A stretch of 64,000 bases of DNA, from contig NZ_ASHR01000010.1 of the NCBI RefSeq assembly GCF_000400485.1, positions 1 through 64,000 on the forward strand, given 5' to 3'. Origin of the DNA: Agrococcus pavilionensis RW1. Its GTDB lineage: Bacteria; Actinomycetota; Actinomycetes; Actinomycetales; Microbacteriaceae. A program made the translations under genes and the position numbers. A model generated the notes under the pieces. It worked only from the letters and a program-made list of their open reading frames with translations. It did no database searches and was not told the DNA's origin. Shown here piece after piece: positions 3,090 to 64,000 of this stretch (the stretch's first letter is position 1; each line of letters begins with the position of its first letter).

Positions 3090-3119
3090 GAGGAGCCTCT
3101 CGTGCTGGGGACTCCTATC

Positions 3120-3152
3120 TTGGACTGCGTCCAAACTTTGACGCAAGCCAAA
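3120..3152. promoter_or_regulatory. Double palindrome in divergent TetR/LPXTG promoter region
   Basis: A perfect dyad TTGGAC-TGC-GTCCAA lies at 3120-3134. Two bases on, at 3137-3152, is a second dyad TTTGAC-GCAA-GCCAAA with one mismatch per arm. Both share the TTGgaC/GtCCAA theme and fall between the start of the LPXTG gene (3089) and the GTG of the TetR gene (3155). This is the usual layout for two TetR dimers controlling both divergent genes. Binding is inferred from symmetry only. Confidence 0.6.
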
Positions 3153-46923: not shown

Positions 46924-46948
46924 GGCGCCCACCGCGAAGAGGAGAACC

Positions 46949-48202: not shown

Positions 48203-48964
48203 ATGGAAGAGCTGCGCTACGAGAGTGGCATCGCGGGGCAGCCGTTGCACGCCCGCTTGTGGAGGCGCGCTTCGGCCAGCCAGTTGCTCGTGCTGATGCC
48301 CGCAGCGGTCAGCAGGGAAAGCCCGAACAGGCACCCAGCATTTGCGCGATGGCGCTGGGCAGACCGATTCCCTGATACGCACATCGTCGCGTTCGCTGAC
48401 CCATCGATGGGCCTGAGCGAAGAATTGCGTGGGGCGTGGTTCCTCCATCCAGAGGTCGACGTCCTCGACGGGATCGCGCGGCAGGTGCGAGCGATTGCGC
48501 AGACTCTCGGCGCTCGCTCAGTGCTCATCTACGGCTCCTCGCTAGGCGGCTTCGGCGCCCTTGCCACGGCCGCCCTGGTACCGAGCGCCAAAGCCTTGGT
48601 CGAAGTACCACAGCTGGATTTCGCGCACTGGCACCCCGGCGCGGTGGCTGATGTGGAGCGGCACGTTCTGGGCATGCCGTTGGAAGAACACAGAGCGCGA
48701 CAACCACACCAAGTCAGCGTTCGATCGCGCTTTGAGCGTGCGGGACGCATCCCTCCATACGTGATTGTCACCAACGTACGCGAAGACGGTTTCGATGAGC
48801 AGATCGCCTTCCAGCGATGGGTGGTCGATTCACAACTCGAGCGCGGTAATGATCTCGGGGGGCACGAGCTGCGCGTCATCGACGACGTGGTGGGCCACCG
48901 CGCACTCGGGCCCGTGCCCGCTAGCGCACTCATCTTGGAACAGTTGCGAGCCATCGCGGACTAG
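48203..48964 (+). CDS. Alpha/beta-hydrolase-like protein
   Basis: 253 residues without a signal peptide. YGSSLGGFG (residues 110-118) gives the GxSxG nucleophile elbow with Ser113. RVIDDVVGHRALG near the C-terminus could supply Asp and His of a triad. The region before the elbow (RWADRFPDTHIVAFADPSMG) fits an alpha/beta hydrolase core. Similar proteins occur among polysaccharide and accessory secretion genes as putative esterases or acyltransferases; no function is established. AAGGAG lies about 12 bases before the ATG, farther than ideal. The last four bases overlap the stop of the convergent glycosyltransferase. The 105-bp gap before it has a TAACCT -10 candidate. Confidence 0.65.
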   Translation: MEELRYESGIAGQPLHARLWRRASASQLLVLMPAAVSRESPNRHPAFARWRWADRFPDTHIVAFADPSMGLSEELRGAWFLHPEVDVLDGIARQVRAIAQTLGARSVLIYGSSLGGFGALATAALVPSAKALVEVPQLDFAHWHPGAVADVERHVLGMPLEEHRARQPHQVSVRSRFERAGRIPPYVIVTNVREDGFDEQIAFQRWVVDSQLERGNDLGGHELRVIDDVVGHRALGPVPASALILEQLRAIAD

Positions 48965-50262
48965 CTGCTGCGGTTGCGCTCGACTTCTGTCTCTAGCAAA
49001 ACACGATATTGCTCGCCGATGACGTCGTACTCAGCGTTCCTTGCGATCCAAGCGCGCCCGCCATCACGGCTGGCGACGAGTGCGCGATCCCTCGACAGCC
49101 GTCCCCACAGGTCCGCGACCGCGCTCGCATCCCCTGGCGGCACGACGTCACCACTGTTCGACTCGCGAACGAGGGCCGCCGCCTCGCCGTCCACGATCGC
49201 GGTGATGTGCTTGCCTGTCGCCATGAGTTCGTAGAGCTTCGACGGCACAGTCCACTTGAAGGGCTCCCAGTCACGCAACGCGACCACGGTCGTGTCGGCC
49301 CAGTCGTAGTGTCCGAACACTTCGTTCGGCTGCACACGGTCGAGAAGCCGGACGGGTGACCCTAGCGCCGTATTGAGCGCGCGCAGTCGCGCGACGTCGG
49401 CACCGTATCCGACGATGCGAGTTTCGATTCTCACACCGTGCTCGCGGGCAGCCGCAGTCGCCCTGATCACGGTTTCGAGCCCTTGACTCCGGCCGATGGT
49501 GCCCATGTACAGGACTCGCAGTTCGTCGTGATCGTGAACGGTAGGTGGGATCACTGCATAGCGCGCAAGCGAAGTGCCGTTGCGGATCACGTGTACCGGG
49601 TCCACTTCCCGGTCGCGTAACACTTCGGCGAAGCTCTCCGTCGTGGTGACCACGACCGCAGCGTCTCGTTGCAGCGCAGTGATCGCTCCATGCACGCGCT
49701 GCTTCACCCTCGCAATTGGTCCCGCCCCACTCACAAGCCCCGGTGTATGCGAGACGAGATCGGGCCAAGCGTCACGCATCTCTGCCACAAGCGGAACTCC
49801 CAGGCGCTTGGCTACGACCCGACCGGCTAACAAAGTCGGCAGCCCGGGCGCGGTGGCCACGATGACATCAGGCCTGACAATGCCTCTCCGCGCAAGCTTC
49901 GTCGCCAGCATGATCGAAGCTGCGGCGACCCACAGATGGTCAAGAGTCCTAGAGGCGACGCTCGCGTCGTGCCGAAGGAACGAGACGCGCCTCACTGTGC
50001 CGCCATGTGACCCGACAGCGACACCTCCCGCCCGCGTCGCCGGCGCGGCCGCGGGGTCTAGCTTGCCGGTCGGGTAGTGCGGTGGTGGCGCAATGACGTC
50101 TACAGCATGCCCTGACGCCACAAGCCGTTGAATTAGCGCGTGCCAGCGCCGTTGCGGCGCACCATTCTCCGGTTCGAAGTAGTGCGTGAGGAGGAGCACG
50201 TGCACCGGTGGCCTCACACCCCGCCGTCGATCACGTGCTTCACCCAAGCAGGATATCCGCAT
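48961..50262 (-). CDS. Family 4 glycosyltransferase (WbuB-like)
   Basis: About 433 residues from ATG 50262; GTG 50217 is an equally possible start closer to the conserved VHVLLLTHYFEPENGAPQRR. The WbuB/WcaI-type features are PPHYPTGKL, DHLWVAAASIMLATKLARR and VVAEMRDAWPDLV-like PLVAEMRDAWPDLVS. The donor half has VLYMGTIGRSQGLETVIRA, DWEPFKWTVPSKLYELMATGK (lacking the classic E-x7-E sequence but matching this subfamily) and VVPPGDASAVADL. WbuB-type enzymes often add N-acetylated fucosamine or ManNAcA-type sugars, which would suit wecB/wecC. It diverges from the permease gene over 116 bp. Confidence 0.85.
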   Translation of the reverse strand: MRISCLGEARDRRRGVRPPVHVLLLTHYFEPENGAPQRRWHALIQRLVASGHAVDVIAPPPHYPTGKLDPAAAPATRAGGVAVGSHGGTVRRVSFLRHDASVASRTLDHLWVAAASIMLATKLARRGIVRPDVIVATAPGLPTLLAGRVVAKRLGVPLVAEMRDAWPDLVSHTPGLVSGAGPIARVKQRVHGAITALQRDAAVVVTTTESFAEVLRDREVDPVHVIRNGTSLARYAVIPPTVHDHDELRVLYMGTIGRSQGLETVIRATAAAREHGVRIETRIVGYGADVARLRALNTALGSPVRLLDRVQPNEVFGHYDWADTTVVALRDWEPFKWTVPSKLYELMATGKHITAIVDGEAAALVRESNSGDVVPPGDASAVADLWGRLSRDRALVASRDGGRAWIARNAEYDVIGEQYRVLLETEVERNRSS

Positions 50263-50378
50263 CTCGCCAGAAACCCGGACGGAAGTCGCCTTCGCCGCGC
50301 CCGCGCCTGTTACGTTCGAGACTCGATGCGCGCGAACCCCGCGGTCGCGCACCCTCTCTACGACAAGGCTTTCATCAG

Positions 50379-51821
50379 ATGAGTACGGACTCGTTCGTCC
50401 CGACCGCCACATTGAAGCGCACGCTGCAGCCGCGATGGGTTTTTGCGATCGCGTTGGGCTCTGCAGTCGGGTGGGGCGCGTTCATCTTGCCATTCGACTG
50501 GCTCGCCGCTGGCGGACTGGGGGGCACCCTCCTGGGGTTCTTGATCGGCGGAGCGCTCATCGCCGTGATCGCGATGAGCTACGGCGCTGTCATCCGCGCG
50601 CTTCCAGTCACTGGCGGAGGCGTCGCATTCGCGCTGGCCTCGTTGGGCCGCGTCCACGCGTTCGTCGCGGGCTGGTGTCTGACACTCGGGTACGCGGGCA
50701 TCGTTGCTCTTAACGCGTCCGCGATGTCGCTGGTATTTCGGATGGCGATGCCCGATCTGATGATGCAACTCAAGCTGTATTCCGTCGCGGGATGGGACAT
50801 CTACCTGCCTGAGGTAATCGTCTCAGTCCTGTTCCTCTTGATCTTCGCTTGGATCAATGCGCGCGGCGTCGCACTCTCCGGTCGCCTCCAGTTCCTCGCG
50901 TGCGTGATCATGCTGCTCGCCGTCACTGCGATCATGATCGCAGCCGGTGCCTACTTCATGACCGGGGCAACCCCGATCCCTCCAGCATTCCCCGCGGACG
51001 TCTCACCCGTTGCCGCGATCGCTACGATCGTCGCTTTCGCCCCCTGGGCATACGTCGGCTTCGACAACGTCCCTCAAACGGCCGGTGAGTTCAATTTCTC
51101 GCCCCGCAAGGCGCTTGCTCTCCTACTCTGGGGTGTCGTCGCGGCGACCTTCATCTACATGGCGATGACCGTAGCGACCGCGATCGCCGTCGGCGACCAG
51201 CCGGAGCTCTATGCCGACACGGCATGGCCGCCTGCTGTCGCAATCACCGGGATCGCGGGCCCGATCGGCATGATCCTCATGCTAATTGCGGTTTCCATGG
51301 GCGTGTTAACGGGACTCAACGGCTTCTATGTCTCAACGAGCCGCGTCCTTCTCACTATGGGACGCGCGAAGATGCTCCCGCGTGCCTTTGCGGCCCTGCA
51401 CCCTAGGCACGGCACGCCCGTCGTCGGCATCGCGTTCACTCTGCTGATCTGCGTCGTAACTCCATGGTTCGGACGGGCCGCATTGTTGTGGATCGTCGAC
51501 ATGACAAGCTTCGGGATAACCGTCGCGTACTTCTACACGTGCTACTGCGCCTTCCAGCTCGGCAGATCGGGGCGCTTGCCCGGCATGACTTCGCAGCAAG
51601 CGTCGAGCGCCGGCCTCCAGGCGACCGGGCTCATTGGATGCGCGTTCGCGGTCATCTTCATGCTGCTCTTGCTCGTGCCAGGATCGCCGGGAGCCCTGGG
51701 GGCACCTTCTCTTATCGCACTGGGCGCCTGGATTGTGATGGGAGTGGTGTTCTTCCTCGCGCGACGCAAGTCTTACCTCTCGACATCCGACGAGGAGCTG
51801 CACCGCTCGGTGTTCCATTGA
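50379..51821 (+). CDS. APC-superfamily amino acid permease
   Basis: 480 residues with about 12 membrane helices. The first helix carries IALGSAVGWGAFILPFDWLA, the GSxIGxGxF-like substrate motif of APC transporters; helix 6 has FAPWAYVGFDNVPQTAGEF, also diagnostic. It should import an amino acid or related amine by ion symport. An amino acid permease inside a polysaccharide locus is unexpected. It lies directly before an asparagine-synthetase-like gene on the same strand, hinting that it supplies the amine for polymer modification (inference). Codon choice is less GC-biased than in the left half. Confidence 0.85.
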   Translation: MSTDSFVPTATLKRTLQPRWVFAIALGSAVGWGAFILPFDWLAAGGLGGTLLGFLIGGALIAVIAMSYGAVIRALPVTGGGVAFALASLGRVHAFVAGWCLTLGYAGIVALNASAMSLVFRMAMPDLMMQLKLYSVAGWDIYLPEVIVSVLFLLIFAWINARGVALSGRLQFLACVIMLLAVTAIMIAAGAYFMTGATPIPPAFPADVSPVAAIATIVAFAPWAYVGFDNVPQTAGEFNFSPRKALALLLWGVVAATFIYMAMTVATAIAVGDQPELYADTAWPPAVAITGIAGPIGMILMLIAVSMGVLTGLNGFYVSTSRVLLTMGRAKMLPRAFAALHPRHGTPVVGIAFTLLICVVTPWFGRAALLWIVDMTSFGITVAYFYTCYCAFQLGRSGRLPGMTSQQASSAGLQATGLIGCAFAVIFMLLLLVPGSPGALGAPSLIALGAWIVMGVVFFLARRKSYLSTSDEELHRSVFH

Positions 51822-52012
51822 GCAAGCCAGGCCGGTTGGTAAGGGTCGGGCGACCCGGCCGGACATGGCGGGAACTGCGCCTGGGGCATGGGGCCCTCTG
51901 ACACCGCGGCGCCGGAACCAATGTCGACTCCGAACTTGCCGAGCTGGGCGAATCCTTAGTCTCTGTCTCGCCGCCGATAACATTGGAGAACCCTACCTCC
52001 CAAGGATTCCAA

Positions 52013-53827
52013 TTGATCACTGACGTCGTTCGATTCGCCGGTGCCGGGAAGCTCGACCCGAGCAACGAACGCGGCGACACCGGCTCGTTCCGCATTGTTC
52101 AGAGGTGGGGAGCGGCAGTCACGCCCGTGCGTGATACCCCAGCCTTCAGAGTTGGCCAACCGGTCGACCCCACCCTCGCACTCAACGGCGAGTGGTGGAC
52201 TGTCTCTCGTGACACAGCGGGGCGATTCCTGGTGATGTCTGATCCTTACTCGCTGCAACCCCTGTTCTATGCATCCGTGGAAACGCGCGACAGCCGGGAC
52301 CTCCTCGTTGGGGGCAACCTGGCAGCAGTTGCGCAAGCAATGCATCTGTTAGGCGCCAAGGTGGAGACCGACTGGGCCGCTGTCCTCCCTTCGCTCGCGA
52401 CCAAACGAGACTTCTTTGACACCATGTGGGATGTTGGGACCGCAATCCGGGGAGTAACGGTATCGCTGCCGGGTCAAGCGTTGCTGGTCAACCCGAGCGG
52501 TCATAGCATCGTGACGCGCCCTGAGCCAGACCACCTGTGGCGCGCGTCGTACGAAGACCTTCTCCGCTCGGGAGCTGCCGCCGCCATCGAGGAGTTGCAG
52601 CGCACCTTCGCGGCGGCCGATGGCGACAAGCCCGTGCTGAATCTCTCGGGCGGGAAGGACTCCCGGCTTGTGCTGGCGCTGATGATCGCGGCCGGGCTCT
52701 CCGACCGCGTATGCGTCAGTGCGCAAGACCCTCGAGGGGCAAAGCCGCAATGGAAGTTCGACATCCTGGATGCCGACCTGGCGATCAGCTCGCGTTTGAC
52801 GAACAGGTTTGGTCTCGACTGGCGCAGTTCACTCCCCGAAAGAGAAGTCTGGCCCGATTCGCTCGAAAGTCAATTGGCCGACTTTCAGCTGTTCCGAGGC
52901 GCCCGTAGCTATCAATTCTTTCCGCTCTCTCACAACTACAGATACATCAAGCCGGCCGTTCGCATCACGGGCGCCGGTGCCGGAACGCTGAAGTCCCCCT
53001 GGCGGCAGCAGTGGGAGCGAGAAGGGCTCTGGGCTCAATTGAGCCGCACTCCAGGCTCTTTGGACGAGGATGCGCATCGGATTCTTCGCAGCGAGTTCCG
53101 CCGGGCGCCGATTCCGCGAGAACTCGAAGGGCCAGTGTTCGCGCGATTCAGCGAGACTCTTCTCAGCCTGGGAAAGGGCTCGATCGACGATGCGGTCATG
53201 AATCACTACGGCGCTTTCCGGAATCGCGGCCATGTCGGAGGCATGCTCTGGGCACGCGATAAGGGAGCAATTGTCTGCAACCCCCTGCTTCAGCCGGCGC
53301 TGCAGCGAGCTTCCATGCGCTTGCCTGCGCACCTGCGCGACGCGGGTCGTGTGACATTTGACCTGCTTGAACTCTTGCTCCCTGAAATGAACGATCTGGA
53401 ATTCCAGTCCGGTGCGTGGCCATGGAGCAGTGACCGACCACAAGCGCTCGACTGGTCCAAGTACCCTAGCGACCGTCGCGGCTTCTTCCAGTCTCAAGAC
53501 AGACGAGCGTCGGCCCCCCGACCCCAGTACAAGTGGGGCCCTAATCCCGACATGACGGCACTCATCAGGTCCGGTCTTTCGGAGTTGCGCGAGGCGGTCG
53601 ACGCGGCGGGCTTGCCCGGTGACCATGTCGTCGGGCCGATCCAAGTCGAGCCGCCCGAGGATAGACGAGGACAGGGACGCCTCCTCGCTCGACTGGCGAC
53701 GTGGGGCCAGGGCTTGCCGCACGCTGCCAGTTTCGCTAGGACGATAGAGTCGCGATCGCCGAGGGTCTTCTCAATCTTCCCCGAGTATGACTACACCACG
53801 CCTCCAGCAATCGGAGGCTCGGCGTAG
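52013..53827 (+). CDS. Asparagine-synthetase-like ATP-dependent amide ligase, Cys-less
   Basis: 604 residues from TTG 52013, six bases after AAGGA; TTG 51983 lacks a ribosome-binding site. Residues 1-190 resemble the class II glutamine amidotransferase fold (FLVMSDPYSLQPLFYA, LLVGGNLAAVAQA) but there is no N-terminal Cys to release ammonia from glutamine. The synthetase domain has the PP-loop LSGGKDSRL (211-219), which activates a carboxylate as acyl-AMP. Proteins of this layout include beta-lactam synthetases and uncharacterised enzymes in polysaccharide loci. It probably forms an amide on a uronic acid with an external amine. Another member lies convergently downstream. Base composition is clearly less GC-rich than in the left half. 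Confidence 0.72.
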   Translation: MITDVVRFAGAGKLDPSNERGDTGSFRIVQRWGAAVTPVRDTPAFRVGQPVDPTLALNGEWWTVSRDTAGRFLVMSDPYSLQPLFYASVETRDSRDLLVGGNLAAVAQAMHLLGAKVETDWAAVLPSLATKRDFFDTMWDVGTAIRGVTVSLPGQALLVNPSGHSIVTRPEPDHLWRASYEDLLRSGAAAAIEELQRTFAAADGDKPVLNLSGGKDSRLVLALMIAAGLSDRVCVSAQDPRGAKPQWKFDILDADLAISSRLTNRFGLDWRSSLPEREVWPDSLESQLADFQLFRGARSYQFFPLSHNYRYIKPAVRITGAGAGTLKSPWRQQWEREGLWAQLSRTPGSLDEDAHRILRSEFRRAPIPRELEGPVFARFSETLLSLGKGSIDDAVMNHYGAFRNRGHVGGMLWARDKGAIVCNPLLQPALQRASMRLPAHLRDAGRVTFDLLELLLPEMNDLEFQSGAWPWSSDRPQALDWSKYPSDRRGFFQSQDRRASAPRPQYKWGPNPDMTALIRSGLSELREAVDAAGLPGDHVVGPIQVEPPEDRRGQGRLLARLATWGQGLPHAASFARTIESRSPRVFSIFPEYDYTTPPAIGGSA

Positions 53828-53830
53828 GGG

Positions 53831-53850
53831 AAGCGCTTTGCCCAGCGCTT
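53831..53850. terminator. Hairpin between the convergent asparagine-synthetase-like genes
   Basis: AAGCGCT-TTGCCC-AGCGCTT forms a perfect seven-base stem with a six-base loop in the 21-bp gap between the two stops; its last two bases fall in the TAA of the minus-strand gene. It probably serves both directions. Confidence 0.6.
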
Positions 53851-55693
53851 AGTCGGGAACTTCAATCTCGACGACCTCCACCTGCCGGGGTTCCTCGGCC
53901 GAGAGCCAGCCGCCGTTCAGCGAGTACTGCGCCGAAAACAGCGCCCAGGCGGCGGGAGCGCGGTACTGCCGTCCGCCCAGCATTCTCTCGACAGCCCGGC
54001 GATCGACCACATCGAACAACGCAGAGTTCGCGTCGCCGAGGATGTATGACTTGAAGAACCCGCTCAAGTCACGACCGTAGACGCTGCGCCAGTTGAAGTT
54101 GGCACGCGGCTGCTCGTGGGCGGTGTGTGGCGCCCGAGCGTCCCATCCGTTCGGATCATAGAACCCTGACGGTCCCGCCTTCTCGAAAGCCCATCGGTCT
54201 CGGAAGAAGGGCAGGTCCTGCACTCCGGGTGCGAGGCGCGACATCAGGCTGTGCGAGACCTTCTCCGAGCGCATCTCCTCCGTCGAGAACGTCTTGAGTC
54301 GACGCACGAGCTGGTTGTTGATCAGGAGCGTCGCGTGAGGAGCCACTACGGACTCGCCGTGACGCATCGTCGCAAGCCAGCGACCCGTCCGGTTGGTGAT
54401 GTATCCCTCGAACAGGGTGCGCCCCGGGTCCGACCACCGCGAGTCGAAGATGGGCCGGAAGTCAGCCAGCACGGCTTCCTGCGCGAATGGCTGCAGCAGA
54501 TCGCGATTGTTGGTCCAGTACCGGGTCAGGATGTCGAGCGTTCGATCGGCCGACGGCGCGTCCGCCTCCATGTAACGGAGGAAACCACCTCGGATGATCT
54601 CACCTCCCTGCCCGCCGAAGTTCGCCTTCTTGAGCGGCGACACATGCTGCTGGGAAGGATTCGGCAGCACGGTAAAGGCATTCCCCAGGCCACCCGTGGA
54701 ACGCAAGGTCTGCCACGCCTGCCTCTCGGGCTCAGCCGCGATCACCTGCTTCCCCGACTTACCCGTGGTGGTCCGCGGAACCTGAGTCACGTGCTCGATG
54801 CCCAAGAGCTTCGCAACGGACTTCCCGACGTGCGCCTCCCCGCTCTCGGGCAAGCCGTTCGTATAGGTCGAGAACCCGACGCCGGCCGCGTGCAACGCCG
54901 AGATCACCAGGCGGCTGTCCTTGCCGCCCGTAGCCGCCGCCGCCACGCTTTCGACGCCGTTTGAGAGCATCCGCGCGTAGCTCACGAGACTGTCCGCGAG
55001 GCTGTCGACCCGCTCCGCGTACGGTCGAGCGGCGAACTCACTCGCCCCCGGATCGTGCGTCACCGCGATGTTGGCAGCAGCGCCACCGCTGATCTTGGCG
55101 CCGGCCGGCACGAGCTGAACTCCGAGGAACGGCACGGTGTCGGTGATGGGGAGCCCGTGCATGATGAAGCCCGCGATCCCGAGACGACTCGGCTCGACCT
55201 TGCCGCCATTGCGCATGAGCGAGAGCGCGGCGGCAGAGTTGCTGATCACGAGCGCATCTGGCAGATCGATCCAGTACATCGCTTCGGAGCGATGGGTGTT
55301 CGTGTAGGCCGCCAGCGTGTCGGGTGTGGCCCCGAGCGTCGCGAAGCTGCCGATCCCGTCCCAGATCGGGTCATCAATCGTCCCGCGGTCCACGTCGTGG
55401 CCCCGCAGCGCGGCCACGGTGTCGGCGCCCATGACGCCGGTCCACGCCCAGCATCGCTGCTTGTTCCCGAGCCAACCGCCGCGCTCCGGCACGCTTTCAG
55501 GTTCGTTCGATCGGTAGATGACGGCGGTGCGCCCCTTGCCCGGCACCCACTGCAGGGCCTGGGTCGTATTCGCGGCAGGCCAAGGTTGCACACGCTCGAG
55601 CGCCGACAGCGCTTGTCGCACGAGACCAAACCGGGGCTCCCGCGACTCGGGTGTGATGTGATTCTTCACCCTTATGCCGACGATCAGTCTCAT
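53849..55693 (-). CDS. Second asparagine-synthetase-like ligase, Cys-less
   Basis: 614 residues. The N-terminal half has an amidotransferase-like fold (AYTNTHRSEAMYWIDLPDALVISNSAAAL) but begins MRLIVGIRVKN, so the catalytic Cys2 is absent. The PP-loop is ATGGKDSRL (254-262), followed by ALHAAGVGFSTYTNGLPES. The length and domain order equal those of its convergent neighbour, but the two share little sequence outside the PP-loop, so they are not recent duplicates. The ATG overlaps the stop of the heparinase-like gene (ATGA), linking it to the minus-strand operon with wecC. It is likely an ATP-dependent amide ligase acting on a sugar acid; substrate unknown. Confidence 0.72.
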   Translation of the reverse strand: MRLIVGIRVKNHITPESREPRFGLVRQALSALERVQPWPAANTTQALQWVPGKGRTAVIYRSNEPESVPERGGWLGNKQRCWAWTGVMGADTVAALRGHDVDRGTIDDPIWDGIGSFATLGATPDTLAAYTNTHRSEAMYWIDLPDALVISNSAAALSLMRNGGKVEPSRLGIAGFIMHGLPITDTVPFLGVQLVPAGAKISGGAAANIAVTHDPGASEFAARPYAERVDSLADSLVSYARMLSNGVESVAAAATGGKDSRLVISALHAAGVGFSTYTNGLPESGEAHVGKSVAKLLGIEHVTQVPRTTTGKSGKQVIAAEPERQAWQTLRSTGGLGNAFTVLPNPSQQHVSPLKKANFGGQGGEIIRGGFLRYMEADAPSADRTLDILTRYWTNNRDLLQPFAQEAVLADFRPIFDSRWSDPGRTLFEGYITNRTGRWLATMRHGESVVAPHATLLINNQLVRRLKTFSTEEMRSEKVSHSLMSRLAPGVQDLPFFRDRWAFEKAGPSGFYDPNGWDARAPHTAHEQPRANFNWRSVYGRDLSGFFKSYILGDANSALFDVVDRRAVERMLGGRQYRAPAAWALFSAQYSLNGGWLSAEEPRQVEVVEIEVPD

Positions 55694-57474
55694 TGCTCTC
55701 CTACCTGTGAGCTTGCGTTGCGCTCAGCGATCAGCGAGCCAAAGTCCTCGACGCTCGCGCGTCCGGGCGTGACAGTGCCCCACTGCTCGCCCAGCAGCAG
55801 CGACGTCGAGCGGCCGTCTGGCAGCGAGACCGTCGCGGCGATCCACGAGGAGTCGACGTCAACGAGTTCCGCTTCCGCCCGCTCCGCCGTCCCGTCGAAG
55901 CACAGCAGAGTCAGCATGCGGGATTGGCCGGGACCCGGCTCGAACGCCAGGGTTCTGACCGGCACCTTCTCTCGCCAGTTGGGCGAGTACCAGCCTTGGA
56001 GCGGCGATGTGGAGCCCTCGTACACCGAGAGCGAGTCGCTGCCGTCGAGCCTGAACAGTCGCGCGCGGTTACTGCCGCTCCTGACGAAGACCGAACCTTC
56101 CTCCCGACGGTGGCTCGCACCTTCGGCGAAGTGCCACCACTGGCGGGCCCGAACAGCGCGAGCGGACTCGATGTCGTCGACGACGACAGCAAGGCGCTGG
56201 TGCAGGCTCACCAAGACCCGTCTGGTGATCGTCACGCCAGGGTAGCCGCGGTCCACGAGCCGGTAGAACTCGGCGCTCTCGTCAATCGAGTGCGCGTCGA
56301 GCACGACCTCGGTGGCGCGCTCGTACTCGATGCCGTCGAGGCTCACGGAATTGTGACCCGCCCTCGACACGACGTACTTGCGCACGGGATCGGCCACGTC
56401 GTAGGTGAATTTTCCTGCGTCGCGCAGGAACGATTCGCCGTTGGCGAAGAGCGTCAGCGCCATGCCGTCGTTGTGCCCGTGGATCTGCTTCTGCGATCCG
56501 AAGCGGAGAGAGTAGAAGGACGCATCGGCGAACGATTCTCTCGCGTCGCCCCATGTGGAGCGACCGAACGCGTACCCTCGCGAGTAGACCTTGACGCGCT
56601 CTCGCGGGGGCACCCCTTCGCGACCGCTCGAGTGCACGTAGCGCACCGCCGGGTGGTCGACGCCGCCCATCTTGAACTCTTCGGTGTCGCCGATCATCTC
56701 GACACGGCCGTCCGGACGGGTCGCATGTGCCATGCCGATCGGAGCCCGGTTCACGCGGTCGAAGTCTTGTGGCGACGAGCCCATGGTGATCTCGAAGCGA
56801 CGCCGCATGAGGTTCCACCACGAGTAGTTCATGTGGTGGTACTGCAGAGCGCCCTCTTCGTTGATGCCTTCATCGTCGTAGGCGATGTGCACCATTTCGA
56901 CGCAGCGCTCTCGCGCGAGCTCGACCCAGTCCGGGCGCTGCAGCACTGCGCCCAAGACGAGCAGTCCTTGGTGCTGCTGCAGGGCGTGATTGCCAGTCTT
57001 GATGTGAGCCGGGTCCTCGAGCCAAGCGCCATGCTCCTCGAGCGAAGCGAGGATCAACGGCAGCGCGTCGGGGCGATGCTCCTCGATGACCGGCAGCGCG
57101 AAACTGAAGGTCAGCGCTCGAGCGCCGTCGACCATGTCGGCCCAGGAGTAGCGCGAGACACCTCGTCCGGGCGGGTTCCTCTCGATCCACGACGTCGCAT
57201 ACTTCAACCACGTGTCGATGAAGTGGGAGTCACCGGCGGCCGCGCGCCGCCGCAGCGGATCGAGCCAGCGGAGCGTTTGATACTGGAAGGTCCAGTTCGT
57301 CTCCTTGAACGGATCTTCCCGCCACGTCGGCTCCCCCGGCAGCTTCCAAGGCTTGTGGGGATGCAGATGCAGCGTGCCGCCTGCGATCGCCTCCGCGAGG
57401 GCACGGTCCTGGTTCGTGGGGCGGAACATGGCGCCGAACGCGTGCGCCTCCGCCATCTCTTTCGAATATGACAT
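55690..57474 (-). CDS. Heparinase II/III-like protein
   Basis: 594 residues. The N-terminal alpha/alpha toroid (TWLKYATSWIERNPPGRGVSRYSW, NHALQQHQGLLVLGAVLQ) and the C-terminal beta-sandwich are typical of heparinase II/III and alginate-lyase-like proteins. QIHGHNDGMALTLFANGESFLRDAG near residue 331 is the conserved domain motif, with His332 and His334, and GALQYHHMNYSWWN may hold the active-site Tyr. No signal peptide is found, so it appears cytoplasmic or exported by another route. Such proteins in surface-polymer loci could trim or edit a uronic-acid-containing glycan. Coupled by ATGA to the Cys-less ligase downstream; the large glycosyltransferase gene lies 12 bases upstream. Confidence 0.82.
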   Translation of the reverse strand: MSYSKEMAEAHAFGAMFRPTNQDRALAEAIAGGTLHLHPHKPWKLPGEPTWREDPFKETNWTFQYQTLRWLDPLRRRAAAGDSHFIDTWLKYATSWIERNPPGRGVSRYSWADMVDGARALTFSFALPVIEEHRPDALPLILASLEEHGAWLEDPAHIKTGNHALQQHQGLLVLGAVLQRPDWVELARERCVEMVHIAYDDEGINEEGALQYHHMNYSWWNLMRRRFEITMGSSPQDFDRVNRAPIGMAHATRPDGRVEMIGDTEEFKMGGVDHPAVRYVHSSGREGVPPRERVKVYSRGYAFGRSTWGDARESFADASFYSLRFGSQKQIHGHNDGMALTLFANGESFLRDAGKFTYDVADPVRKYVVSRAGHNSVSLDGIEYERATEVVLDAHSIDESAEFYRLVDRGYPGVTITRRVLVSLHQRLAVVVDDIESARAVRARQWWHFAEGASHRREEGSVFVRSGSNRARLFRLDGSDSLSVYEGSTSPLQGWYSPNWREKVPVRTLAFEPGPGQSRMLTLLCFDGTAERAEAELVDVDSSWIAATVSLPDGRSTSLLLGEQWGTVTPGRASVEDFGSLIAERNASSQVGEQ

Positions 57475-57486
57475 CCGGTTCCTGCC

Positions 57487-60400
57487 TCAGCCACCGACGA
57501 CGCGACGGTGCAGCTCTTTCAGCACCTTCGCCTGCGCGTAGTTGTCGCGGATGAACTCGGCCGACTGGCCCGCTTCGCTTCGGCGGCGGAGGATTGCGGC
57601 AGCCATGTCCTCGACGGTGGGTTCGATCCAAGACTTCGGGTACAGATACTCGGATCCTCCCCATGCCAATGTCACCGGAACGGCACCCGATGCGGCGCCA
57701 TCGGCGATGGTGAAGTGGAATGATTCGTAGTCCGAGACCGAGATGGCGAAGCCGATCTTGCGGTACCACTCCGCCATGTCGTCGCCGTAGCCGTCGAAGA
57801 CGACCGAATCGGGACTCACCTGGTTCAGAGTTTCGATCTCCTGGTAGACACGGTCGTAGTACGCGAGCTCCTCGGGACGGTTGCGCATCCAGTGGTAGTC
57901 GTGCGGCTGCTTACCCTTGATGCGCAGCGTGAAGCGCGGGTCTGATTCCCTCACTCGGCGCAGCAGGTCGACCGCCAGATCGAGTCGCTTCATCTGCGGC
58001 ACGATGCCCACCATGCCGAGCGTGAACTCCGCCTCCGAATGCTTCGGTAGCGCAAGCGCGTCCACGTCCACGAAGTTCGGCACGACCACCGACTTGGCGG
58101 CTGGGATGCCGTGGCTCGCGATCGCCGCGAGCTTGATGAGCTGTCCGACGAACAGGAATGCCTCGACGCGGCTGTGGTCGATGCGTCGCAGGTGCGGTAG
58201 CTGCAGCTCTTGGCGGTGGACTCGCACCACCATGCGCTGGTCCTCGCGCAGATGTCGCGAGTACCAGACGGCGTTGCCGAGGCCCCACTCCGCGAAGACC
58301 GTGTCGGCCTGCGCGAGCAACTCCAAAGACTGCTGCTCGTCGTGCTGATCGTGACCGTGCCACTGGTCGATGAGCACGCGGTGGCCTTCACCCTCCAGGT
58401 GAGCGATGAGCGCGCGCGCGAACTTGAGGTCGTGGCCGGCGACGACGACGGTCTTCGCACCAATCGGCCGGTCGATCACCTCGGCCGCGCGGTCGAGCTG
58501 TGCGACGGGCGATGGGGCGAAGAGCAGCTCCACGCCCGCCGGCCGCACCTCGGTCAGATCATCGATCGTTGCGACGTGCGTCGATCGGACCAGGCCGACC
58601 GACGCACCCCTGGAGACGGGTCGCGCGAGGGTGCTCGTCGCGTCTTCCTCGGACGCCCACGCGTAGTGCACCGCTTCCCAGTCCCCGAAGCGCGTGGCGT
58701 GCAGCAGATCCTCGAAGTGCGTGCGAGCGATCGGGGCGTCAACGCGGCCCGCGTACGCGACGACCGTCGCGTCAAACCCATCGATGCTCTGAATGTCGAT
58801 GTCTGAGCCGACGGCCGCGCGGACTCGTTGGACGGCGGAGCCCTCAACCCACGCGCGCGCTGGGCGCACCGACTGCGATTCGAGAGAAGCGAGCGTGGCT
58901 GAATCCGTCGCGCCCAGCACGACGCCGTAACTAGGGGTGGCTTCAACCTGCACCGGCACTCCGGCAGTGCGGGCGAGGATCGCGATGGCGGTCTCTGCGG
59001 TGTGGGCCCGGTAGACGGCGCGCATCTGGAGCCACGCCTCCCGCACACGCTCCACGGGATTCGTCGACCAGTCGCGCAGCATCCCACGCCAATGCGTCGC
59101 GTCATCCGTGCTCGCGATGGCGGTGCCGAAGGTCTCGGCCATACCCCGGCTCGAGCTCGACAAGACGATCCCGCCGCACCCGGCGATCTCGACGACGCGC
59201 CTCGAGAACATAGAGGGAGACCCCTCAACCGAGTTGACGTTGATGTGCGCGACGTGGCTCTTGTAGGCGTCGATCACCTCGTCGTACGGGAGCGACCCGA
59301 CGACGTATGGCGCGAACTCAAGCGGGAAGCGATAGGGCGAGTCGGGATTCGATGCCTGACGATCATAGATGGTCAAGCCGTAGGGCCGAGCCGTCGAGAG
59401 GAGCCTCGCAAGGCGACGCGAACGGTCGGCGTAGCGGTCGCCGTAGTACGTGCCAGCGTACGCCACGGTGTGCCTGAACTCGCGGGCCGACGGCAAGGGG
59501 TTGTGGATGCGCGGCTGGGCGTAGAAGCCCAGCGACGACGCTGTGCGCGTCGCGGCACCCGCAGTCGTCAGGTAGCCAGGGATCATGTCGGCATCGGTCG
59601 TGAAGACGTGATCGCAGAGGCCCGCATTGCGGCGGAAGCGGTCGAAGTGGACGGGGTCTTCCTTGTTCCAGAAGACGCTCGGGATGCCTAGCTCACGTGC
59701 CCGAGCGAGCAGCTGCACTAGGTCGGCGCTCTCTTCGTCGCTGTAGTGGCCGACGCCACGGTGCCACGTGCCCTCGTTGCCGGACCATGCGGACTCCACG
59801 AAGACGAGGTCGAGCGCGTCTGAGTCCAGTTGCTCGAGCCACCCCTCGCGTTGGAGCGGCACGATTTGCACCGTCGCGGCGAGGGTCTTCGTGGTGAACT
59901 CGTCGGCGATGAGACCCACCCGCAGTGTCCGCAATGCGGGTCCCCCCTGCGCGGCCGCAGCGTAGTTCGACGCGGCGATCGAGTGAGTCTCGAGCATCCG
60001 CCGCCCGATCTGATTCCACGTCCGCTCACGCACCACCCACTGCCGAGCGGCACGTCCGAGGTCCGCGGCGCGGTCGCCATCGACGATGAGCTGCTCGAGT
60101 GAGTCAGCGAGTTCCTTCGCGTCACCCGGAGTCACCAGCACAGCACGGTCACTGCGCTCCCCGGCGAGATCCCGGTGCGGAGCGACGTCCGAGAGCACGA
60201 CGGGCTTCATCATGCTGAACGCCTCGAGCGGCTTCAGCGGCGACACCAGCTCAGTCACCCGGTTGGAGAGTCGCGGGATCGGCATGATGTCGAACGTGCT
60301 GAGCAAGCGCGGTATGTCCTGCATCGGAAGGCGACCCAAGAACGTGACGGACCGGAGCTTGCGTTCGTCTCTCTTGGCCCTCAACTGCCCCGCGGCCGCA

Positions 60401-61941
60401 CCGGAGCCCGCGATGACCACCTGGTGGTCGACGCCGCGGTCGTCGAGGATCTCGGAGGCGTCGAGCAGCGTCTGGAGACCCTCATAATCGACGAGGCTGC
60501 CGGCGAAGCCGATTACGGGTACGTCGACGCGCACGCTCTTCAGTGAAGCGAACGCGACGTCCTTCGGGATAGGCGCGAACTGCTCTGCGTCCACGGCGTT
60601 CGGCGCGAGCCGGATCTTGTCGGCTTGCACGCCGCGCCGGATGAGCTCATCGGCGACCTGCTCGGTGATGGCAAGCACCACGTCGGCTTCTTGAGCGACA
60701 AGTGTCTCGAGCGCCACCATCTGCGCGTATTGCTCGGTCGCCTCCCACTCCGCCTTGCTCGACGCGTTCGTGACCTCCCACAGCCCGCGCACCTCGTAGA
60801 CGAAGGGCACGCCGAGTCGGCGTGCCGCGATGAGCGCGGGCAGTGCGGTCCGGTGATTGGACGCCGACTGGATCACCGAAGGACGTTGCCGGCGCGCCTC
60901 GCGCACGAAGCCATCAGCGGCGACCTGCACGTAGTGGTCGATGGGGGCATCGACCAGCGACAGCCCAGGGAGGTGGACGTAGGGCACCTCGTCCATGTGC
61001 TGCTCGTGGCGCAACCGCTTCGGCTTCTGCGAGTCGGCCTCGGAGTCCCACGGGTATCCGGGCCTGGCCACCACGACCACGTCGGCACCGTTGGCGCGCA
61101 TCCCCGCGGCTACACCGCGGGTGCGAGTCGAGTAGCCATTCGAGTTGAACATCGGAGTCGAGTGCACGCAGTAGAGCACCCGTCCGGGCTCCGCCACGTA
61201 GGCGACGCCCTTCGCTCGGGGCGGCACGCTGACGCCACGCTGCAGCAACCGCTGCTCCCCCATCACGCGTTCGGCGAGCGTTCGGTCGCCGGCCTCCAGG
61301 GCAGCGAACGACTCGGGATTGCGAGCGATGAAGTCCGCGGTGTCGTTGATGGACCCATGGCCGAACCACAGGCGGTTGACCACTCGAGCGAACCGCTTCG
61401 GCGACGGGTCCTGCTCGAACTCACGCATGAGCGTCTCGGTTGAGCGCTCTGCCACGGGTATCTCGGAGGTCCTCGGCTCGTCCGGCGTCGCAGGAACCAC
61501 CGGGATGGAGGCATCCTCGATCGTCTTGACCTCGGCGGAGACTGACCCCGTCGCGGCGGCCGTCGAGCCGCCGCTACGAGCGATTCGCTTCACAGCATGG
61601 AGCGGGCTGAGCACGGCGCGGCCCAGGCGCATCGAGTTCGAGGAGCGAACGCGCTGCAGGTCTTCCTTCAGGCGCTTCGTCTCACGCCGGTAGGCATCCA
61701 GGGAGCCATGCGCCGAGGCGAGACGACGTCGCATGTCGGCGTCCTGATGCTTCTTCGCCGCTTCCACCGCACGTTCGAGATCCTGGATCCGCTTCTTGTA
61801 CGCGGCCTCCCTCGCTTTGTGCTGTCGCTCTCGAGCCAGCAGTCCTTCGTACTTGCGGAAGAGCGCGATCGGGTCGTCGGTCGCTTCCCGAGCGCGCTGC
61901 GCCCAGATCAGCTCTTCGCTGCGGCCCTCATCAGGATGCAT
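57487..61941 (-). CDS. Giant triple-domain glycosyltransferase
   Basis: 1484 residues from ATG 61941, five bases after GAGGGG; an ATG five codons upstream lacks one. Residues 30-110 are a coiled coil (ARERQHKAREAAYKKRIQDL). A GT4 domain spans about 245-660 (YCVHSTPMFNSNGYSTRTRG, VIGFAGSLVDYEGLQTLLDA, VSPLKPLEAFSMMKPVVLS). About 665-990 is a CgeB-like domain (LRVGLIADEFTTKTLAATV, GSPSMFSRRVVEIAGCGGIV). A degenerate linker follows, then a third GT-B domain at about 1160-1484 (VVVAGHDLKFARALIAHLEG, GMVGIVPQMKRLDLAVDLL, SVSDYESFHFTIADGAASG). It may polymerise a repeat by successive transfers. Last gene before the heparinase-like gene in an operon led by wecC. Confidence 0.82.
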   Translation of the reverse strand: MHPDEGRSEELIWAQRAREATDDPIALFRKYEGLLARERQHKAREAAYKKRIQDLERAVEAAKKHQDADMRRRLASAHGSLDAYRRETKRLKEDLQRVRSSNSMRLGRAVLSPLHAVKRIARSGGSTAAATGSVSAEVKTIEDASIPVVPATPDEPRTSEIPVAERSTETLMREFEQDPSPKRFARVVNRLWFGHGSINDTADFIARNPESFAALEAGDRTLAERVMGEQRLLQRGVSVPPRAKGVAYVAEPGRVLYCVHSTPMFNSNGYSTRTRGVAAGMRANGADVVVVARPGYPWDSEADSQKPKRLRHEQHMDEVPYVHLPGLSLVDAPIDHYVQVAADGFVREARRQRPSVIQSASNHRTALPALIAARRLGVPFVYEVRGLWEVTNASSKAEWEATEQYAQMVALETLVAQEADVVLAITEQVADELIRRGVQADKIRLAPNAVDAEQFAPIPKDVAFASLKSVRVDVPVIGFAGSLVDYEGLQTLLDASEILDDRGVDHQVVIAGSGAAAGQLRAKRDERKLRSVTFLGRLPMQDIPRLLSTFDIMPIPRLSNRVTELVSPLKPLEAFSMMKPVVLSDVAPHRDLAGERSDRAVLVTPGDAKELADSLEQLIVDGDRAADLGRAARQWVVRERTWNQIGRRMLETHSIAASNYAAAAQGGPALRTLRVGLIADEFTTKTLAATVQIVPLQREGWLEQLDSDALDLVFVESAWSGNEGTWHRGVGHYSDEESADLVQLLARARELGIPSVFWNKEDPVHFDRFRRNAGLCDHVFTTDADMIPGYLTTAGAATRTASSLGFYAQPRIHNPLPSAREFRHTVAYAGTYYGDRYADRSRRLARLLSTARPYGLTIYDRQASNPDSPYRFPLEFAPYVVGSLPYDEVIDAYKSHVAHINVNSVEGSPSMFSRRVVEIAGCGGIVLSSSSRGMAETFGTAIASTDDATHWRGMLRDWSTNPVERVREAWLQMRAVYRAHTAETAIAILARTAGVPVQVEATPSYGVVLGATDSATLASLESQSVRPARAWVEGSAVQRVRAAVGSDIDIQSIDGFDATVVAYAGRVDAPIARTHFEDLLHATRFGDWEAVHYAWASEEDATSTLARPVSRGASVGLVRSTHVATIDDLTEVRPAGVELLFAPSPVAQLDRAAEVIDRPIGAKTVVVAGHDLKFARALIAHLEGEGHRVLIDQWHGHDQHDEQQSLELLAQADTVFAEWGLGNAVWYSRHLREDQRMVVRVHRQELQLPHLRRIDHSRVEAFLFVGQLIKLAAIASHGIPAAKSVVVPNFVDVDALALPKHSEAEFTLGMVGIVPQMKRLDLAVDLLRRVRESDPRFTLRIKGKQPHDYHWMRNRPEELAYYDRVYQEIETLNQVSPDSVVFDGYGDDMAEWYRKIGFAISVSDYESFHFTIADGAASGAVPVTLAWGGSEYLYPKSWIEPTVEDMAAAILRRRSEAGQSAEFIRDNYAQAKVLKELHRRVVGG

Positions 61942-61972
61942 CCTCGCCCCTCGCATCGGATCGCCTGGCGCG

Positions 61973-63241
61973 TCAGCGCCAGACGCCCTTGGTGTCGATG
62001 AGGACCTTCTCCTGCAGCGCCTCGCGATCGATCCGCTTGAATGGACTGTGGTCCACGAGCATCACGACGATGTCGGCTTCCGCGATGGCGCTCTCCGCGT
62101 CCTGCAGCTGCACGTTCGGCAGCTCGGACAGTCGAACGGGCAGCGCCTCGACGTTCGGCTCGACCACGCGCACGCTCGCATCCGGCATCTCAGCCGCGAG
62201 CTGCCGCACGATCTCCAGTGATGGCGATTCCCGCAAGTCATCGATGTCGGCCTTGAACGCAATCCCCAGCGCGGCGATCACCGGCGCTTTGAACCGCGCC
62301 GCCTTCGTGAGCACCTTGTCGACCACGTAGCGCGGCTTGCTGTCGTTGATCTCCCGAGCCCACCGAATCAGCTTCGCCTCCTCGGGCGCCGCCGCGACGA
62401 TGAACCACGGGTCCACCGCGATGCAGTGGCCACCGACCCCCGGACCGGGCTGAAGGATGTTGACACGCGGGTGATGGTTCGAGAGCTCGATCAGCTCCCA
62501 GACGTCGATGCCGAGCTTGTCGCAGATGATCGACAGCTCGTTCGCGAACGCGATGTTGACGTCGCGGAACGAGTTCTCCGTGAGCTTCGCCATCTCCGCC
62601 GTGCGAGCGTCAGTCACCAGCAGCTTGCCGTTCGAGAACGTGGCATAGAGGTCGCGAGCCATCTGGCCGGCGATCGGCGTCACCCCGCCGATGACGCGGT
62701 CGTTCTCCGCCATCTCGATCATGATCCGACCCGGCAGAACGCGCTCTGGCGCGTGCGCGAAGTACACAGAGTTCGGCTTCCCGTCCGCGTCGGTCAGATC
62801 CGGACGAGCGTCGAGGATGAACTGCGCCATCTCCTCCGTCGTCCCCGGAGGCGACGTCGACTCCAGCACCACGAGCTCGCCGCCCTTGAGCTGCTCAGCG
62901 ATGCTCTTGGCCGCAGCCTTGATGTACTTCGTGTCAACCGAGTAGTCATGCTGAAACGGCGTCGGCACCGCCACGATGTACGCATCAGCATGCGGTGTCG
63001 TCGTCTGCGCCGTCAATGACCCCATGCTCACCACGCCCGCGAGCGTCGCCTCGAAGTCTGGCTCGAAGAACGGCACCTCGCCGCGGTTGATCCGCTCGAC
63101 GAAGCGCTCGTTGACGTCGACTCCGATCACTCTGATGCCTTTCGACGCGATGAACGCAGCGGTCGGCAGACCGATGTAGCCGAGACCGACGACGCTGACC
63201 GTCTCGAAAGTCGACATCGCGGTCGAGTGGGTTTCGGTCAT
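61973..63241 (-). CDS. wecC: UDP-N-acetyl-D-mannosamine dehydrogenase
   Basis: 422 residues, start ATG 63241 supported by AAGGATGG; the frame extends 19 codons further. The NAD-binding opening VVGLGYIGLPTAAFIASKG is followed by VLESTSPPGTTEEMA, FAHAPERVLPGR and LTENSFRDVNIAFANELS. GPGVGGHCIAVDPWF carries the catalytic Cys273, and GIAFKADIDDLRESPSLEIV is the last domain's signature. It oxidises UDP-ManNAc (from WecB) twice to UDP-ManNAcA, the uronic acid proposed as the target of the two Cys-less amide ligases downstream. The giant glycosyltransferase gene starts 31 bases after its stop. Confidence 0.94.
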   Translation of the reverse strand: MTETHSTAMSTFETVSVVGLGYIGLPTAAFIASKGIRVIGVDVNERFVERINRGEVPFFEPDFEATLAGVVSMGSLTAQTTTPHADAYIVAVPTPFQHDYSVDTKYIKAAAKSIAEQLKGGELVVLESTSPPGTTEEMAQFILDARPDLTDADGKPNSVYFAHAPERVLPGRIMIEMAENDRVIGGVTPIAGQMARDLYATFSNGKLLVTDARTAEMAKLTENSFRDVNIAFANELSIICDKLGIDVWELIELSNHHPRVNILQPGPGVGGHCIAVDPWFIVAAAPEEAKLIRWAREINDSKPRYVVDKVLTKAARFKAPVIAALGIAFKADIDDLRESPSLEIVRQLAAEMPDASVRVVEPNVEALPVRLSELPNVQLQDAESAIAEADIVVMLVDHSPFKRIDREALQEKVLIDTKGVWR

Positions 63242-63380
63242 GAGTCCATCCTTTTGGTCGCGTACAGCACCCCAGACGTGGCAGCTCCCAGCCGACACGT
63301 AAGCCGCAATCCTATCTGGCAGCGGAACGAGCCACCGTCGTCCAACATCCGGACCACTGAAGAGCCAGCTGAGCCGTCCG

Positions 63381-64000
63381 CTAGCGCGCGATCTGCTGCG
63401 GAAACGTGTCGAGCAACGCCGCCTGGACCGCGTCGAGGCTCTCGATCGGCCTGTAGCGCGTCTCGACCGCTCGCAGCAGATCTCTCATCGGCGACAACGG
63501 CGTCACATCTGGCTCACGACCGAACCCCGAGTAGTAGTCCGCGAACTTGAAGCCGTCGCCGGCGACATCGGCCGAGAACTGAACCCAAGCGTTCGGGATA
63601 CGTAGAGCGTCGCTCAATACCAACCCGTGCAAACTCGAAGAGATGATCCGGCGGCATTGCGCAACGCCGCGCACGACCTCGGCAACCGGCGCGGCGACGT
63701 CAATGATCGATACGTCGGCGGACCGACTGAGCTCGCCCAGGAGAGGAGCCGAAGCGTCTACATAGTGCGGCACCACGCCCAGCTCGTACTTGGTCTCGAC
63801 TTCCTGCGCGTCGAAAAGAAGTCCGACCAGCAAACCCGGGTCCCCCAGTACCACGCCGCGCTGCTGCCCCGGCTGAAGCTTCGCAAGCGTGAGCGCGCCC
63901 CGGACGGCATGAAACTGAGTACGGTCGTGCATCCCCCACGAGTTCGACGCAATGTAACCGGCACCCCAGCAGTGGAGACGTGAGGTTCGGTGGCGCTTGA
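63381..64000 (-). CDS. Polysaccharide pyruvyltransferase, 5' end beyond window
   Basis: About 206 residues are present; the reading frame stays open past ATG 63932 to the window edge (upstream residues include HCWGAGYIASNSWG), so the true start lies outside. The HCWGAG and later CRRIISSSLHGLVLSDALRIPNAWV and FKFADYYSGFGREP segments are those of the polysaccharide pyruvyltransferase family (CsaB/WcaK-like), which adds pyruvate ketals to sugars such as ManNAc. Pyruvylated ManNAc-type polymers anchor surface proteins in Gram-positive bacteria, consistent with WecB here. wecC follows after 139 bp with no recognised terminator; a TAGGAT hexamer at 63309-63314 may be the wecC -10. Confidence 0.85.
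   Translation of the reverse strand, partial: KRHRTSRLHCWGAGYIASNSWGMHDRTQFHAVRGALTLAKLQPGQQRGVVLGDPGLLVGLLFDAQEVETKYELGVVPHYVDASAPLLGELSRSADVSIIDVAAPVAEVVRGVAQCRRIISSSLHGLVLSDALRIPNAWVQFSADVAGDGFKFADYYSGFGREPDVTPLSPMRDLLRAVETRYRPIESLDAVQAALLDTFPQQIAR

Follow-up and report, generated by a model that had tools for sequence, protein, structure and literature searches.

What do an amino acid permease, asparagine-synthetase-like proteins without a catalytic N-terminal cysteine and a heparinase-like protein do beside the ManNAcA genes of Agrococcus pavilionensis RW1? An earlier note on this DNA proposed that ManNAcA residues are amidated, with the permease supplying the amine and the heparinase-like protein editing the chain. 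The window analysed here is the whole stretch of 64,000 nucleotides (contig NZ_ASHR01000010.1, positions 1 to 64,000). In the reading that we prefer, and to which we give a probability of about 0.4, the locus is a strain-variable cassette that modifies a ManNAcA wall polymer before its export by the ABC transporter, most likely by ATP-dependent amidation. The alternatives weighed below overlap in part, and their odds do not sum to one.

Gene content of the locus

The locus is that of Agrococcus, and gene calls, Pfam and NCBIfam recover every gene named earlier: the permease, ligases A and B, the heparinase-like protein and WecC. The earlier list had passed over a hydrolase-like gene at 48203-48964. 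The features are as follows.

45132..46094, plus strand: ABC-2 type polysaccharide export permease (Pfam PF01061, 36.9 bits, cut-off 26.9; orthologues at WecB/WecC loci in relatives)
46081..46923, plus strand: ABC export ATPase (Pfam PF00005, 65.5 bits)
46640..48097, plus strand: WecB-type UDP-GlcNAc 2-epimerase (open frame, true start internal; TIGR00236, 448.8 bits, cut-off 210)
48203..48964, plus strand: alpha/beta-hydrolase-like protein (Abhydrolase_1, E 0.003, below cut-off)
48961..50412, minus strand: GT4 glycosyltransferase, divergent to the permease (Pfam Glyco_trans_1_4, 47.5 bits)
50379..51821, plus strand: APC-family amino acid/amine permease (Pfam PF13520, AA_permease_2, 114 bits, cut-off 27; open frame from 50208)
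51983..53827, plus strand: Cys-less ligase A (SGGKDSR; TTG start; PP-loop at residue 222; member of profile A5)
53849..55693, minus strand: Cys-less ligase B (TGGKDSR; PP-loop at residue 255; member of profile A5)
55690..57474, minus strand: heparinase II/III-like protein (two Pfam domains above cut-off; N162, Y212 and H332 conserved)
57487..61956, minus strand: large multi-domain glycosyltransferase, with the heparinase gene 12 nt downstream
61973..63298, minus strand: WecC-type UDP-ManNAc dehydrogenase (NF008286, 588.6 bits, cut-off 459), with the glycosyltransferase gene 16 nt downstream
63381..64000, minus strand, continuing past the window to contig position 64172: polysaccharide pyruvyl transferase (Pfam PF04230, 28.1 bits, cut-off 25.3)
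Contig positions 64169-65683, beyond the window end: ligase C
Contig positions 72022-73536, beyond the window end: ligase D

The heparinase stop and the ligase B start overlap as ATGA, and an LCP gene adjoins ligase D. WecB and WecC both score over curated cut-offs, thus supporting a UDP-ManNAcA pathway, and these two enzymes would yield UDP-ManNAcA. Glycosyltransferases would assemble the uronic-acid polymer in the cytoplasm; the polymer would then be exported by the ABC transporter and probably attached to peptidoglycan by the LCP protein. With its ABC exporter and LCP genes, the locus has a teichuronic-acid-type wall polymer as a candidate product. The locus resembles the utr loci of Streptomyces, which direct an amino-uronic-acid, teichuronic-acid-like wall polymer and vary in gene content between species; in contrast to the Agrococcus locus, heparinase goes unmentioned and asparagine appears only as a point mutation in the portions of that report available to us (PMC13274773).

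A Cys-less ligase is present in 13 of 14 WecC-bearing and 0 of 10 WecC-lacking Agrococcus genomes (Fisher 5.6e-6, a value that ignores kinship). Here, as in the heparinase searches, the best five candidates per genome were scored, and the genome searches in general scored no more than a few, so that absences are weaker than presences. The ligase lies at the WecC locus itself in 10 of the 14 WecC-bearing genomes, which bears out its earlier placement beside ManNAcA wall-polymer genes; the WecC stretches read in G006, G018 and G010 hold no Cys-less ligase.

A family of ligases without the N-terminal cysteine

The earlier count of two unrelated ligases was too low and its adjective too strong. 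Besides A and B, the genome encodes ligases C and D past the window end, and contig C18 carries a fifth. At 17% identity to each other, A and B still belong to one profile family (A5, 17 members, mean column identity 24%). The observation that both lack the N-terminal Cys and retain intact PP-loops is sound. In a Cys scan, ligase A has two Cys, at positions 244 and 432, and ligase B a single one, at 81; both PP-loops end in Arg, against Ser in SGGxDS.

At the profile level, the beta-lactam synthetase likeness first suggested for these proteins is supported. The best solved-structure match of the 17-member profile is beta-lactam synthetase (1jgt, E 4.2e-17), with both the Ntn-like and PP-loop domains covered, and the same profile also matches carbapenam synthetase CarA (8e-7) and asparagine synthetases (4e-8). 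A profile-profile comparison with canonical AsnB gives a match (97.6%, E 4e-12) that begins in the Ntn-like domain and extends as far as the GxGxE motif. The Agrococcus ligases thus share an Ntn-like N-domain and a PP-loop synthetase domain with beta-lactam synthetase and CarA, which have themselves lost the Cys. They differ in that the PP-loop ends in Arg or Lys rather than Ser, in their location at wall-polymer loci, and in that catalysis by Tyr/Glu/Lys is putative.

In searches with single sequences, ligases A and B have no Pfam match at E<=1, PDB searches with A, B, C and D gave no meaningful match, and neither a contig scan with ligase B alone nor a viral-contig scan with ligase D gave any match. 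Among 148 other genomes, B found two matches and A four, all weak, and a plasmid collection searched with B returned one record, from Nonomuraea. Profile searches do find relatives in other genomes; of four genomes newly named by a contig scan with the heparinase alignment, only Brachybacterium phenoliresistens has strong profile matches. With five-row alignments, AlphaFold gave no usable model (pLDDT 32.9 for B and 34.2 for A).

Are these proteins enzymes? The PP-loop is present in 44 of 44 relatives scoring at least 100 bits, a count that is partly circular because the seeds were chosen by the PP-loop motif. A C-terminal Lys, matched by eye, is kept in one clade only (YYKA, 7/7); by eye, no conserved C-terminal Lys is seen in the A, B and D clades, and D-clade proteins seem to stop short of its position. 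Ligase A has lost the acidic residue of GxGGE, as have 9 of the 10 members of the D clade and several others. Such losses, together with the very high divergence within A5, would fit relatives that bind ATP without catalysing a reaction, or that have a regulatory role, perhaps as scaffolds in the polymerase complex. We consider this improbable, as GGxDSR survives at 13-24% identity to B, and as one member of the clade that keeps the Lys is fused to a heparinase.

If the ligases are active, their target might lie elsewhere than on ManNAcA: a different carboxylate or amine in the polymer or in one of its precursors, such as a pyruvate ketal, an amino sugar or a peptide. Some ligases do lie outside sugar loci (in Nonomuraea, G138, G212 and on the genome's own contig C18), and ligase C overlaps the pyruvyl transferase gene by 4 nt. 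There is also a weak likeness of B and D to the albusnodin/ikarugamycin-type macrolactam cyclases: NF033561, which matches in 30 of 148 genomes in a class-wide search, gives 25.7 bits for B and 38.7 for D, far under its cut-off of 300, and no match for A. Since the association with WecC is near complete in Agrococcus, this alternative is very unlikely. In the preferred reading, the Cys-less PP-loop ligases would use ATP before export to turn a carboxylate, most likely the one on ManNAcA, into an activated form, which would be coupled to an amine supplied from outside.

The heparinase-like protein and its pairing with ligases

Both Hepar_II_III_N and Hepar_II_III_C score above the Pfam cut-off in the heparinase-like protein (52.9 and 37.5 bits). 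N162, Y212 and H332 are invariant in this protein and three homologues and align with the Asn, Tyr and His of solved heparinase III, positions that we take to be catalytic in PL12 enzymes. The Agrococcus protein differs from heparinase III in that no signal-like N-terminus is evident by eye (one is present in a Nocardioides homologue), in that it is encoded in a biosynthetic locus, and in that its nearest homologues carry a hydrolase-like extension. For fused or extended proteins, "hydrolase-like" denotes a motif and mutual likeness, with no Pfam name. The hydrolase-like protein of the window has a 57% identical counterpart on a WecC contig of G010, and a gene of G007 bridges the two groups, with 26% identity to it and 35% to the C-terminal extension of the relatives' heparinases.

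Relatives of the heparinase are found in other genomes. A Cys-less ligase lies within 10 kb of 7 of 20 heparinase matches outside the Agrococcus pavilionensis genome (four genomes), canonical AsnB within 10 kb at 3 of 20, and neither kind at 10 of 20, a count that leaves out 1 of 21 matches (G121 contig 52) and in which many of the 20 have less than 10 kb of sequence on a side. The ten without either ligase in the stretch read include the WecC-locus heparinases of G005, G221 and G115. A contig scan with the heparinase alignment gave seven loci, two of them with a Cys-less ligase in the stretch covered; three of the seven are the G005, G221 and G100 contigs. In G113, ligase, heparinase and hydrolase-like parts are fused into one protein of 1518 aa, and in G100 the same parts are encoded by neighbouring genes.

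Because the pairing recurs in related bacteria, once as a fusion, the ligase-heparinase pair probably adds to the polymer a kind of decoration that has so far gone undescribed. The heparinase-fold and hydrolase-like proteins would act on the chain by lyase cleavage, trimming, or removal of esters or amides. An open-access literature search joining heparinase and asparagine synthetase returned nothing relevant, only unrelated cancer work. Many bacterial surface glycans contain uronic acids that are amide-linked to amino acids or other amines (PMC10609480). If the proposal is true, the linked and once-fused pair would be a candidate, open to testing, for the step that couples the amine.

The permease and the possible source of the amine

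The earlier note would have counted a permease unlinked to these genes in relatives against its proposal. By that standard the link fails within Agrococcus, where 0 of 23 other genomes have the permease, and recurs elsewhere. The permease is found near similar loci in other genera: among 18 other genomes with the permease, 6 also encode a Cys-less ligase, which in 3 of the 18 lies within 25 kb of the permease.

WbpS and WbqG, AsnB-like proteins encoded next to uronic-acid sugar genes as the ligases are here, are taken to use glutamine through an N-terminal Cys, which ligases A and B lack. One may ask whether the ligases form plain uronamides (CONH2) from free ammonia, the permease being an unrelated neighbour. 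According to the part of PMC7468200 available to us, a WbpS-type AsnB encoded beside Wbp sugar genes makes glucuronamide and is needed for the uronamide, and this AsnB-type uronamide maker is the sole carboxyl-side enzyme found in the literature surveyed. The canonical AsnB genes near heparinases and the lack of the permease in other Agrococcus genomes point the same way. We nevertheless regard free ammonia as unlikely, since the family-wide Cys loss fits a non-ammonia amine at least equally well, and among solved structures the family stands closest to beta-lactam synthetase rather than to AsnB.

It is also conceivable, but rather unlikely, that two units were crowded together in an island and share no pathway: permease with ligase A, and ligase C, pyruvyl transferase, WecC, glycosyltransferase and heparinase with ligase B. 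The two are on opposite strands and converge at 53827/53849, GC3 is low over 48-69 kb, which suggests insertion, and the permease is missing from the other Agrococcus genomes. Such independence accords poorly with the ligase-heparinase pairs found elsewhere and with the permease orthologues of G113 and G634, which adjoin ManNAcA/ABC genes.

Under amidation with an external amine, the permease would be the supplier. A wider proposal, which we hold to be doubtful, is that GGxDSR Cys-less ligases, with cytoplasmic heparinase-fold and hydrolase-like domains, amidate wall uronic acids of actinobacteria with imported amines. In Agrococcus the amine might be taurine or a related omega-amino acid, and the outcome would be a surface chemistry that is particular to each strain and shifts in a serotype-like manner. 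In Streptomyces, a wall polymer broadly like this one serves as a toxin receptor (PMC13274773), and strain-variable decoration could thus matter for competition.

An Xsc-like gene is present at 8 of 19 permease orthologue loci, in apparent taurine operons. The window has no Xsc-like gene, and the best match in its own genome to the Xsc of taurine loci is 32% identical. Taurine as the substrate is a lead rather than the main claim: the window shows no linkage to taurine catabolism, and its permease clusters with the Brachybacterium clade, outside the taurine-operon clade.

Gene order and composition of the locus

The stretch studied covers 1–64,000 of a 114-kb contig in a genome of 2.88 Mb. Genes were read on both strands, and chosen ones were scored against families. 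Judged by its predicted gene content, this is a wall-polymer locus with the following order:

GT4 glycosyltransferase, ABC exporter pair, WecB, hydrolase-like gene
GT4 glycosyltransferase, opposite strand
50379–51821 (+), APC-family permease
51983–53827 (+), ligase A
53849–55693 (−), ligase B
55690–57474 (−), heparinase-like gene
large glycosyltransferase (−)
61973–63298 (−), WecC
pyruvyl transferase (−)
beyond the window end: ligase C, more glycosyltransferases, DUF6270 protein, ligase D, LCP protein

An ATGA overlap joins the heparinase-like gene and ligase B, ligase C shares 4 nt with the pyruvyl transferase, and the gaps from WecC to the glycosyltransferase and from the latter to the heparinase-like gene are 16 and 12 nt. 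This spacing points to a coupled minus-strand operon from which the permease and ligase A stand apart. GC at third positions is 0.69–0.86 in 12 called frames between 48 and 69 kb; the median is above 0.9 in 31 called frames flanking this span (either side, 30–95 kb), with values of 0.85 or less in five of them. The lowered values fit a variable segment, imported in part.

A DUF6270 protein lies near WecC (8675–9451 of stretch L004), likewise in the majority of loci read from Agrococcus and Brachybacterium. The window also encodes, at 963–3146 (−), what is probably a surface protein, with numerous SPEPTA repeats and an LPRTG-like C-terminus.

Ligase-like proteins and their tie to WecC

A Cys scan found no cysteine near the N-terminus of ligases A and B, and a Pfam search gave no match in either. 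Among solved structures, the top match of A5, a 17-member profile of the Cys-less family, is beta-lactam synthetase (E 4.2e-17), followed by asparagine synthetases (4e-8), carbapenam synthetase (8e-7), and NAD synthetase (5e-6). The earlier description of these proteins as Cys-less and beta-lactam-synthetase-like is supported by the Cys scan and the profile; the best match spans profile positions 90–317 of 563 (Ntn-like domain and PP-loop), and the C-terminal catalytic half is unaligned in it. Compared profile to profile with the canonical AsnB of three further actinobacteria, A5 aligns as far as the GxGxE motif. The ligases are not Cys-type amidotransferases, as they lack the defining cysteine, nor NF033561 macrolactam cyclases, as they score below the family cut-off; they would share the mode of action of beta-lactam synthetase, if active at all.

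Of 44 distinct relatives (at least 100 bits, loci read), 42 have Arg as the last loop residue and two have Lys, a partly circular count because the motif guided seed choice for the ligase profile. Three canonical AsnB neighbours score 61–68 bits with this profile and have Ser there. The acidic residue of GxGGE is missing in ligase A, in nine of ten D-clade members, and in several more. A Lys near the RPK position of AsnB is visible in one clade only (members from G100, G113, G532, B. phenoliresistens, and the Agrococcus genome G008). Members from the first four adjoin heparinases, one being fused; the seventh, from G008, has no heparinase within the stretch read. Ligases A and B thus descend from a ligase-like family, and their catalytic activity is putative.

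The ligase profile reaches 100 bits or more in 21 of 248 other relatives, with five candidates scored in each genome. Within Agrococcus, 13 of the 14 WecC-bearing genomes have a match (E ≤ 1e-12), versus 0 of the 10 that lack WecC (Fisher 5.6e-6, kinship ignored). In 10 of these 14 (own genome, G002, G004, G005, G007, G008, G013, G014, G019, G020) the surroundings of WecC, as far as read, include a ligase, while G006, G018, and G010 have ligases away from it; G003, whose WecC sits on a 3-kb contig, has no ligase. Ligase D is the most widespread, with a D-like protein in 9 of 13 other WecC genomes (57–73% identity in eight, 39% in G019). The other ligases vary between strains.

The own genome encodes a fifth Cys-less relative (TGGMDSR) off the WecC contig (contig C18, 3645–5372, stretch L125); two other Agrococcus genomes have close homologues of it. 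A PF00733 search of the own genome matched only this relative and ligase C, and no canonical asparagine synthetase. A relative of ligase B in Nonomuraea (L023:14785–16575, 26–27% identity) has no recognised sugar-locus genes nearby.

The heparinase-like protein and the proposed modification

The heparinase-like protein matches solved heparinase III at E 1.5e-8 to 9.7e-5, and N162, Y212, and H332 are invariant across it and three homologues. Judged by eye, its start has no signal-like stretch; a Nocardioides homologue has one. Heparinase matches occur in 14 of the 248 other relatives, six of them among the 21 ligase-positive genomes.

The pairing of ligase and heparinase recurs elsewhere. Surroundings were covered for 20 of 21 heparinase matches (neighbour radius 10 kb): a Cys-less ligase is found at seven, from four genomes (G100, G113, G020, G007), canonical AsnB at three, and neither kind at ten. 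A contig scan gave a Cys-less ligase at two of seven heparinase loci in the stretches read. In G113, ligase, heparinase-like, and hydrolase-like parts form one 1518-aa frame (L059:9607–14163), of which Pfam names solely the heparinase part; in G100 (Brachybacterium) they are adjoining genes. The heparinases of G005, G221, and G100, three close homologues of the one in the window, are extended at the C-terminus by a hydrolase-like part, to which the separate hydrolase-like gene of the window, at 48203, is tied via a G007 gene. In three other genomes (L056, L060, L061), roughly 4 kb separates a heparinase from a canonical Cys-type AsnB. A search of an open library, which covers little of the subscription literature, gave no paper joining a heparinase and an asparagine synthetase in a sugar locus.

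With an ABC-type exporter, a polymer is expected to be complete before leaving the cell, so this one should be completed intracellularly. A heparinase-fold protein with no evident export signal, alongside ligase-like ATP-binding proteins, would suit modification inside the cell. The most economical step would be activation of the ManNAcA carboxylate and its joining to an amine; for the heparinase-like protein, possible roles are chain trimming or cleavage of unmodified stretches. Known chemistry makes ManNAcA amidation reasonable: in surface glycans, several amino acids, as well as aminopropanediol, form amides with uronic acids (PMC10609480), and a uronamide requires the AsnB-type WbpS (PMC7468200).

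The permease

The linkage of the permease to these genes, expected earlier, is absent from the 23 other Agrococcus genomes, which have no orthologue at E ≤ 1e-60, but appears farther afield. A search of 396 genomes of the order gave orthologues (E ≤ 1e-90) at 19 loci in 18 genomes besides the own. Six of the 18 possess a Cys-less ligase, and in three it is no more than 25 kb from the permease (G113, 1.3 kb; G634, 19 kb; G532, 22.5 kb). ABC exporter genes resembling those of the window lie no more than 20 kb from at least 5 of the 19 loci (G113 second copy, G221, G510, G532, G634), a lower bound since about half of the loci were covered to 10 kb per side.

At eight loci (L153, L155, L162–L166, L173), the permease adjoins an Xsc-like gene, a class III aminotransferase, and a phosphate-acetyltransferase-like gene, a set we take to be the taurine breakdown pathway; these loci are read as apparent taurine-breakdown operons. 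The Xsc-like protein of G113 scores 1027 bits with TIGR03457 (cut-off 676), and the others are 81–98% identical to it; its best match in the own genome has 32% identity (223 bits). The tree places the window permease with those of Brachybacterium and G552, at support 1.0 and apart from the taurine-operon group. Taurine as its substrate is thus a lead only, and a link between permease and polymer is plausible.
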